From: Pseudomonadota bacterium
Lineage (GTDB): Bacteria > Pseudomonadota > Gammaproteobacteria > Burkholderiales > Casimicrobiaceae
Direction: 5' to 3'
Assembly: GCA_009786025.1 (NCBI GenBank)
Contig: WQUA01000002.1
Location: 5,529 to 69,528, forward strand
DNA: 64,000 nucleotides
Shown here: piece by piece, positions 35,609 to 37,945 of the stretch
How positions within the stretch are numbered: the first letter of the stretch is position 1
Layout: each line of letters begins with the position of its first letter
Position numbers and translations under genes: made by a program
The notes under the pieces: model-generated
The model's database searches: none
Seen by the model: the letters and a program-made list of their open reading frames with translations, nothing else
Told to the model about the DNA's origin: nothing

Positions 35609-36262
35609 CTATCTGACGAATGTGTTTTTCACGCGACGCGAATACAGCATGTAGGGGATCCATATCATGGCGGCACACAATGAACGATATACTTCGGGCA
35701 GGGTCTCGGCGCTGCTTTCGGCGTCGGCGACAGGAAGAAATTTGCAGGCCAGGAAATCGGCGGTGACGATAATAATATTCAGCGCCATGTACCCGATAAA
35801 AACTTTTGGAAAGTACCGCGATTTCGTGAAGAAAAGGTAAAGCGAGCACCCGGCCAGCGCGATGATAACGAAATTACTGGCGACCTCGGAAAGGATCAGG
35901 GGCGCCCAAGCGGCGTGATAATGTTCAGCCCCCGGCGTCGTGAGCGCCTCCCACGACCCGTTGGTAAAAATGGGGAGAAAATCGACGGCCAAATAGTACA
36001 GCAAGCGCAAAATCGTGCCGATCAGCCCGAGGCAGACGAGAATCAGCCAGCCGCCAAGCCCCTTCAGTTCTTCGGCGGCGGCTGTCTCACCTTCGCCTTG
36101 CTGTAAGGTGGCGTGCGGCTCCTTCGCCCGTTTTCGCTGTCGGCGGATCAGATAAACCCAAAAGATGGCGAGGACCAAAGCCAGCGCCGCCAGCGGCGCC
36201 CACGACCCGTTTCCTTGCTGAACGTCAGCAGCAGCTTGCGCAAAAGCAAAGTTTATAAACAC
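35609..36262 (-). CDS. Chimeric membrane protein: YajC-like N-terminus fused to a DUF2569 domain
   Basis: 217 residues, GTG start after GGAGG. Residues 1-50 (VFINFAFAQAAADVQQG, then FWVYLIRRQRKRAKEPHA) align with YajC of the same locus (VFISSAFAQAAEGAQQG, FWFLLIRPQQKKAKEHRA). From about residue 66, LKGLGGWLILVCLGLIGTIL and four hydrophobic helices match DUF2569, a membrane family of unknown role. It therefore looks like duplication of the yajC 5' end joined to a DUF2569 gene. It sits between tgt and yajC, interrupting that common order. It may localise to the Sec complex through the YajC helix, which is inference. Confidence 0.7.
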   Translation of the reverse strand: MFINFAFAQAAADVQQGNGSWAPLAALALVLAIFWVYLIRRQRKRAKEPHATLQQGEGETAAAEELKGLGGWLILVCLGLIGTILRLLYYLAVDFLPIFTNGSWEALTTPGAEHYHAAWAPLILSEVASNFVIIALAGCSLYLFFTKSRYFPKVFIGYMALNIIIVTADFLACKFLPVADAESSAETLPEVYRSLCAAMIWIPYMLYSRRVKNTFVR

Positions 36263-36321
36263 AAACCCCTCCTTTTGATCTGTCGAAAAACCTGTTGCGG
36301 CAATAGTGCTACGCCTCGGGT

Positions 36322-36363
36322 TGGAGTGGAATATACACCAACAGCGTAGTTTATCGAATGCAT
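36322..36363. repeat. Duplicated spacer segment, copy 1
   Basis: AATATACACCAACAGCGTAG followed by TTTATCGAATG, just upstream of the chimera, resembles ACTATACACCCACGATGCGG followed by TCTGTCGAATG at 37693-37723. It suggests that both spacers derive from one ancestral sequence. Confidence 0.45.
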
Positions 36364-36427
36364 CGGAAAGCGCGTAGGGCGAGATTTATCTCGCCATTTC
36401 GGACCGCCCGGTGGGCACGGTTGTTCC

Positions 36428-36457
36428 GTTATCGCCTGTCTAGGCGTCGGGACTCGC
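36428..36457. repeat. 30-bp direct repeat, copy 1
   Basis: GTTATCGCCTGTCTAGGCGT with CGGGACTCGC matches the copy at 36877-36906 at 24 of 30 positions. Each lies at the 3' end of an AT-rich gene of the insert. Confidence 0.6.
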
Positions 36458-36467
36458 CTGCTCCGAC

Positions 36468-36810
36468 CTATATATCCGCCAGGTCGCCAGACATAGACAG
36501 GGCAATAAGCCTCTGCAACTCCCTTTTCAGGGAAACAGCCATGCCGGCATTATCCAATCCATACTTGGCGACCGTGCCGCTCAATTCTTTCTTGCCCAAA
36601 AACATCAGAACCCCCGCTATATACAACACAGATTTGGCAGCAGCCATCCCCTCGTAAGGCCGCATCGCAACGCCGGTCAAAAAATTTTCAACAATCACAT
36701 CTTTGATTGTGTTTTCATATTTTGAGAAATGATCATACAGCTTGTTTAATTGGGTCTTCCAAAAAAAACTGCTCAGCTTCTTTGGCAGATAATTTTATTG
36801 AATTCAACAT
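36468..36810 (-). pseudogene. Frameshifted small ORF (homopolymer run) in the accessory block
   Basis: From ATG 36810 the frame reads MLNSIKLSAKEAEQFF. At a run of eight T (A-run 36761-36768 on the plus strand) it goes out of frame and stops after IKQAV. One T fewer would join it to WKTQLNKLYDHFSKYENTI and then IVENFLTGVAMRPYEGMAAA up to the stop at 36468, giving about 113 residues. Both halves look coding. The result may be a real mutation, a phase-variable switch, transcriptional slippage, or a sequencing error. The family was not recognised. The AT-rich composition matches the neighbouring Imm26-like gene. Confidence 0.6.
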
Positions 36811-36873
36811 TTCAAAAGGGACTGACGTAGATTAGGAAGGCAACTATTACAAGAATTTTTGCGCAAAACAATT

Positions 36874-37623
36874 TCAGTTATCGCCCGTTCGAGCGTCGGG
36901 ATTCGCAAGCCCACCCTGACCTGCGCAAACTTCGGGCTTCCTTTTCAGGGCATCCAGAACCCTTCTTTTAACCTCTTTATCATTGGTCGTGACATAGCGG
37001 GGGTATTTTTTTGCAACTTCTTCATTGACGATAACCCCCTGCTTTTGAACCCCCTCAAGTTTATATTCATTCTTATAGTCTTTCCAGGAGAAGAATATAT
37101 CGTTGAATTTTTCATCCGGCTTATATTCAGGGTCTTTTGAGATCACCTCCCAGTCTCCCCCTGTTTGATCATCCAATAAAATAAAGTCATTGATCAGAAT
37201 GGGCGCAATCAACCATTCATTATCTTTTGAGCAATCAAATATAGGGTGTTTTGACACACAGTCGAATATTTCGGCAATGGTTCCGCTCCTCAGTTTAAAG
37301 ACGAGCCGCCCAAAGCCGTATAACTCCTGATCGATTTTAAACGAAAAGATGTCTCCAACCTCCGGCTTTATTCGTTTTTTCCGCTTCCCGGTTTTAATCA
37401 TCACTTTTTCAACGCGAAGCTCTTCAAAATGATTTATGACCTCACTGTTGGCGTTTACAGAAAAGCCCAGCGTCAACAGGTGCTGCAACTCATCAAGCGT
37501 TGGTTTCCTGTGCAAATCTTTTTCATACGCAATTGAGATTGATTGTAAAAACCGTCGCACCTCATCCAAAACAAAATCGCCAACTTCTGCATCAGAATCA
37601 TTGTTAATTTTCCACCAGCCCAT
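36874..37623 (-). CDS. Imm26-like orphan immunity-type protein
   Basis: 249 residues from ATG 37623 (MGWWKINNDSD); the frame is open up to 37662. After a helical N-terminal part (VGDFVLDEVRRFLQSISIAY), residues about 88-190 show KPEVGDIFSFKIDQELYGFG followed by RLVFK, the opening of Imm26-type immunity proteins. The C-terminus is a basic helix ending in PDARTGDN, which falls in the 30-bp direct repeat. The gene is AT-rich, unlike tgt and yajC, and no toxin gene is near. Immunity function is by domain resemblance only. Confidence 0.6.
   Translation of the reverse strand: MGWWKINNDSDAEVGDFVLDEVRRFLQSISIAYEKDLHRKPTLDELQHLLTLGFSVNANSEVINHFEELRVEKVMIKTGKRKKRIKPEVGDIFSFKIDQELYGFGRLVFKLRSGTIAEIFDCVSKHPIFDCSKDNEWLIAPILINDFILLDDQTGGDWEVISKDPEYKPDEKFNDIFFSWKDYKNEYKLEGVQKQGVIVNEEVAKKYPRYVTTNDKEVKRRVLDALKRKPEVCAGQGGLANPDARTGDN
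36877..36906. repeat. 30-bp direct repeat, copy 2
   Basis: GTTATCGCCCGTTCGAGCGT with CGGGATTCGC. It encodes the last residues of the Imm26-like protein and matches 36428-36457. Confidence 0.6.
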
Positions 37624-37686
37624 ATCAGAACCCATCTCAAAATCGTTTAAGCAGCATAGCACGAGGTTCTCAAGCCCCCCGACCTA

Positions 37687-37945
37687 TGCGAACTATACAC
37701 CCACGATGCGGTCTGTCGAATGAGATGAAGAGCTCGCTGAGGGTTATCCCGTCACTTCGGATGATTGCATGGTACGGCGGCGGGAAGCAGACGGCTTCCC
37801 CTACATTGTGTTTGATACGGAGGAGGATTTCTTCTTCGCGGCTCCGCGTAAAAGGAATCAGATCAGACGACAGGCTGCCACCTCTTGCGGCATTCATCGC
37901 CAACCCGCGCTCTGATCTCTGATCTCTGACTTCTGACTTCTGCCC
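37687..37945. repeat. Duplicated spacer segment (copy 2) and repeat cluster reaching into tgt
   Basis: Holds the ATACACCCACGATGCGGTCT segment (37693 on), a GAGGGTTATCCCGTCACTTC module also seen at about 40345, a TTCTTCGCGGCTCCGCGTAA module (37826 on) and the tandem TCTGATCTCTGACTTCTGAC run (37910-37943). The last run is read as the Tgt tail. Confidence 0.6.

Follow-up and report, generated by a model that had tools for sequence, protein, structure and literature searches.

An apparently species-private accessory insertion, with one unusual gene fusion, between tgt and yajC in a Burkholderiales bacterium

Between tgt and yajC in this Burkholderiales bacterium there is a block of accessory DNA whose features are collected in Table 1. 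The window, i.e. the whole stretch of DNA that was analysed (64,000 nts; G000:C2:5529-69528), comes from the one genome of its species that was sampled (2.36 Mb, 79 contigs), and the best matches to its Tgt in named genomes are betaproteobacterial, of the Burkholderiales type, with identities of 77% at most. Measured from the end of the conserved Tgt match to the start of yajC the gap is 2.7 kb. Reading from yajC, it holds a gene joining a YajC-like N-terminus to a DUF2569 domain, a small ORF (orf76), an Imm26-family gene and the relic of an IS5-family element. The genes surrounding the Imm26 gene are yajC and, named by eye, what we take to be secD, tgt, queA and a fabI-like gene.

Table 1. 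Features of the tgt-yajC region (window coordinates; a dot marks features given without a strand)
Feature	Position	Strand	Evidence or remark
yajC, intact, 113 aa; first gene of yajC-secD-secF	35003..35344	-	Pfam YajC, 95.6 bits
TGGTAAACT, extended -10-like element upstream of yajC	35468..35476	-	genus-conserved; putative function
YajC(N-terminus)-DUF2569 chimera, 217 aa	35609..36262	-	Pfam DUF2569, 4.5e-31, 108.7 bits
Copy of yajC upstream segment before chimera; promoter-like TCGATA-16-TATATT	36330..36375	-	28/33 identity; scan 9/12
Direct repeat copy 1, 34 nt	36424..36457	.	repeat search; above shuffles
orf76, AT-rich small ORF	36468..36698	-	no Pfam or PADLOC match
Direct repeat copy 2, 34 nt	36873..36906	.	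overlaps 3′ end of Imm26 ORF; 79%
Imm26-family (polymorphic-toxin immunity-like) gene, ~249 aa, ATG 37623	36874..37623	-	Pfam Imm26, 1e-8
33-bp relic, IS5-family right end (last transposase codons + terminal repeat)	37627..37659	-	32/33 identity
Duplicated spacer segment; promoter-like TCGACA-16-TATAGT	37692..37719	-	upstream of IS relic and Imm26; consensus 10/12
Heptamer repeats TCTGAtc/TCTGAct	37911..37938	.	3′ end of tgt; dispersed in genus

The AT-rich part of the block is ~1.2 kb long (~36.46-37.63 kb) and comprises orf76 (42% GC) and the Imm26 gene (41%), which, against 57% for the surroundings, rank among the lowest 1.4-2.3% of stretches of their length. The chimera gene, at 55.7% GC and also with native GC3, and both spacers (55%) are genome-like. 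The AT-richness that an earlier reading from the sequence only had ascribed to the block therefore holds for orf76 and the Imm26 gene, but not for the chimera or the spacers. A further copy of the block is present on contig C6, which repeats the last 66 kb of C2 with 99.99% identity. It was rejected as a real second copy, being assembly redundancy, and this redundancy may explain part of the apparent contamination of the assembly (8.5%). [Beyond the window, C6 has a CRISPR-like array at ~67-68.7 kb (in L029 from ~7.1 kb) with a period of ~66 bp, ~19 repeats and differing spacers.]

Residues 1-62 of the chimera are YajC-like, with one hydrophobic helix by hydropathy, and residues 67-216 are DUF2569. 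The match to DUF2569 (PF10754) is full length, covering profile positions 2-143 of 143, and exceeds the family cut-off. The match to YajC (PF02699) covers only positions 4-32 of 78 and its 20.4 bits are under the cut-off of 28.2, so that the protein does not qualify as a member of that family; what it shares with YajC is the N-terminal helix, the start of the next segment and a copied promoter region, and the rest of YajC is missing. With these qualifications the sequence-only reading was right to call it a YajC-DUF2569 chimera. The two best DUF2569 relatives in the order, 45% (in genome G258) and 41% identical, stand alone, without a YajC part, and start at about the point where the YajC part of the chimera ends, whereas the domain of the chimera is fused behind the YajC-like helix. 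None of the 10 other genus genomes gave a match to the DUF2569 part, and such a fusion was seen in no other of the 399 genomes in the order.

In a stretch around the conserved TGGTAAACT(AC) element, 28 of 33 nucleotides upstream of the chimera gene are the same as those upstream of yajC, and the 5′ coding DNA of the two genes is 63% identical over 168 nts. On this comparison, the promoter region and first ~60 codons of the chimera are a diverged yajC copy joined to a DUF2569 gene of the stand-alone type. (Promoter-like pairs in the region, those of Table 1 included, are as numerous in a promoter scan as expected by chance.) The YajC part is 45% identical to the genome's own YajC and has a long branch in a tree of YajC N-termini, which does not pin down its source lineage, and the LIRPQQKK motif of YajC is altered in it to LIRRQRKR. 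Because of the altered motif and the long branch, the duplication would be old or fast-evolved, and need not be recent. A structure model made without alignments is all-helical and of low confidence (pLDDT 59), too poor for a fold search; together with the hydropathy, it suggests a protein that probably resides in the inner membrane. The chimera might be linked to the translocon, though this is unsupported. The fusion is the only unusual part of the block.

For orf76 there is one weak match (E = 8e-4) among the 399 genomes, and none in plasmids. Reading through a T8 tract near 36765, as a search query only, gave neither an NCBIfam match nor a convincing homologue. Possibly orf76 is the 3′ part of a broken gene with a frame change at this tract, though homology would not distinguish such a broken frame from a small or spurious ORF. 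The two direct repeats previously reported at 36428 and 36877 extend to 34 nts, from 36424 and 36873, and are identical at 27 of 34 positions, a modest excess over the maximum of 25/34 in 200 local-composition shuffles of the block. No further copies were found in the genome, and the position of the repeats at the 3′ ends of both AT-rich genes would agree with a small duplication that took place locally. The duplication of a spacer segment (36322 and 37693) also stands: the segments near 36330 and 37690 are related with a score of 22, against 11.3 ± 1.7 for shuffled sequences (0/300).

The Imm26 match, 35.8 bits against a Pfam cut-off of 23.3 (38 bits in the genome search), places the gene in the family to which it had been likened. 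It lies in the C-terminal half of the product, which has ~85 extra N-terminal residues. It is the sole Imm26 match in the genome, the redundant contig aside, and none of the sampled genus members yielded the gene. Zhang et al. (2012, PMC3482391) link the Imm26 family (PF15428), whose members are predicted to confer immunity in polymorphic toxin systems, to Tox-URI1 toxins. Because no toxin gene adjoins the window gene among its neighbours in the ORF list, the likeliest guess for it is that of an orphan immunity function. Orphan immunity genes and immunity islets in other bacteria have been described (for example PMC10470768, PMC10539506 and PMC7400221), and the likeness to those accounts is that of a lone immunity-like gene in acquired DNA with no local effector. 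The structure model of the product, again made without alignments, is too poor for a fold search (pLDDT 32).

At its tgt-proximal side the Imm26 gene is bordered by an IS relic that the sequence-only reading did not mention. Searching the block against its own genome showed the relic to match, with 97% identity, the right end of an IS whose intact copy of ~838 bp (G000:C5, ~238-1075) encodes a 256-aa transposase (NCBIfam transpos_IS5_3, 4.5e-66). The relic, matching this element in its end and terminal repeat, thus belongs to the IS5 family (NF033580), though it is one end only and the block has no transposase. The ATG of the Imm26 gene (37623) is 3 nts past the IS terminus. [Owing to the single mismatch of the relic (37633-37635; ATA to ATG, minus strand), the Imm26 ORF has an in-frame ATG within the relic.] Further ends of the IS are at 8 places (C24, C35, C38, C42, C58, C60, C71 and C76), several of them contig ends. 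Within the genus a close form was seen in this genome only; fragments in G010 are at most 65% identical. Since neither a second IS end nor a target duplication was found for the relic, we can only infer that the IS had a role in the gain or trimming of block DNA. The element has expanded in the species with near-identical copies, and those at contig ends probably break the assembly.

Close linkage of tgt and yajC, which had been claimed as the common order, is kept at almost every other beta- or gammaproteobacterial locus compared that has both genes, with gaps of 150-460 bp against the 2.7 kb of the window. Outside the genus the gap is wider in L054 (1.7 kb) and L066 (Undibacterium nitidum; 2.3 kb with a 594-aa ORF). 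For the genus 11 genomes were available, two of them merely 73-76% complete, and both genes were found in 9. The two are ~310 bp apart in G004; G007 has 749 bp and repeats between them, and G010 2.3 kb with a 545-aa ORF. A sister species, G002, has 8.9 kb between them (L032 3530-12424), and the genes there, named by eye from their resemblances, are presumably glnE, a YhdP-like gene (yhdP) and a nitrilase-like gene, all of a housekeeping type. In G003 the region is at repeat-rich contig ends, and in G005, G008 and G009 tgt and yajC are on separate contigs, with yajC flanked by other neighbours in G005 and G009. The genes of the block were not found in the other genus genomes searched. The close order is probably ancestral, and the interruption in the window one among several different ones. 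As judged from these loci, the junction is variable genus-wide, which makes the split in the window unremarkable.

Two kinds of small dispersed repeat were also noted. Heptamers of the TCTGAtc / TCAGAtg family are scattered in intergenic regions and gene ends of the genus (L033, L186 and L133); those in the window are translated as part of the Tgt C-terminus. REP-like palindromes of the GCGAGATAAATCTCGCCCTACG type are present in the window at 36373-36394 and 40335-40356, and elsewhere in the genome at G000:C24:15521 and C52:4494, with related forms in the G003 spacer.

Though the region beyond it varies, the DNA next to yajC retains one feature. In the window TGGTAAACT is 132 bp upstream of yajC, and this is its single exact copy on both strands of C2 and the unique part of C6. 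Of 9 genus members, 8 have the element without a mismatch, at 74-178 bp upstream of yajC, and the ninth (G008) has it with 2 mismatches; yajC itself is 64-82% identical to its counterparts in the 8 other genus genomes where it was found. The element stays with yajC whatever sequence lies beyond. Its retention despite exchange of the upstream DNA argues for an independent start for yajC-secDF, which probably has its own transcription start already, genus-wide. Because the element is conserved irrespective of what is upstream, the insert is likely neutral for sec expression, and protein export is probably unaltered by it. This goes against the earlier idea that the block may separate the expression of the sec genes from that of queA-tgt.

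Several origins and roles for the block were considered and rejected. Neither phage records nor viral contigs held relatives that would indicate a viral origin, and in plasmids nothing was found except a single distant match for Imm26 and another for DUF2569. A role in anti-phage defence found no PADLOC match, and Rfam gave nothing at gathering score for a structured RNA. Nor does the block look like a tRNA-targeted genomic island, as the window has no tRNA and Pfam showed no integrase among the block ORFs tested. No solved-structure relatives were found by sequence.

Quite probably the block is an accessory islet that is private to the species, scarred by an IS and placed at a junction that is variable genus-wide. 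AT-rich foreign DNA would have been gained with an orphan Imm26-type immunity-like gene and possibly orf76. An IS5-family element at the tgt-proximal edge, of which 33 bp are left, may have taken part in bringing or trimming it. The yajC promoter region and first ~60 codons would have been partly duplicated and joined in frame to a DUF2569 membrane-protein gene. The Imm26 protein would protect against the toxin of a neighbour, with no toxin partner locally, and the chimera would be an inner-membrane protein with the YajC helix as N-terminal anchor and YajC function lost, sec expression being unaffected. The proposal of an acquired island built by local duplication survives in this modest form, with 1.2 kb of foreign composition, an IS end, a diverged yajC copy and no counterpart in the other genus genomes searched.

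Alternatively, the whole block could be decaying debris, once mobile, without a working gene and tolerated at the junction. The reduction of the IS to 33 bp, the perhaps frameshifted orf76, the dispersed intergenic repeats and the absence of the block from relatives would suit this, but the Imm26 and chimera genes are full-length open frames with significant family matches, and we consider it unlikely. An opposite possibility is that the chimera is a working, novel translocon-associated protein whose YajC helix docks DUF2569 on SecDF or the holo-translocon, and which is kept beside yajC for co-expression. Its frame is intact over 217 aa with native GC and GC3, it has its own promoter-like segment and a full-length DUF2569 domain (108.7 bits), and it adjoins yajC-secDF. 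Set against this are a YajC match under the cut-off, with the LIRPQQKK motif changed and the rest of YajC missing, a fusion seen in no other genome of the 399, and a model of low confidence, which leave the idea improbable. A version in which the fusion serves the Sec holo-translocon as a functional accessory subunit peculiar to this lineage, with the yajC promoter and anchor helix copied onto an unrelated membrane domain, is very improbable.

The joining of unrelated DNA between tgt and yajC by misassembly might be suspected from the 79 contigs and the apparent contamination. However, two contigs agree across the block, the contamination may be due at least in part to the 66-kb redundant contig, the 5′ end of the chimera is homologous to yajC and its upstream region, and the IS end of the block is that of this genome's own IS; an artefact of this kind is highly improbable. 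Least credible is a remnant integron-like array of gene cassettes, with the 34-bp repeats as recombination sites after each gene. Two co-oriented genes do each have a 34-nt repeat at their 3′ end, but neither strand of the block has an attC-like RYYYAAC...GTTRRRY pair, and a search of the genome showed no more copies of the repeat.

The accessory islet is thus a real insertion, apparently private to its species and ordinary in kind except for one unusual gene fusion, in a genus that is rearrangement-prone. It is an example of how a conserved gene junction is filled in a fluid genome, here by the scar of an IS, by an orphan immunity-like gene and by a new membrane gene bearing the copied promoter region and anchor of its export-pathway neighbour. 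Meanwhile yajC-secDF in the genus keeps a conserved promoter-like element when its upstream neighbourhood is exchanged.
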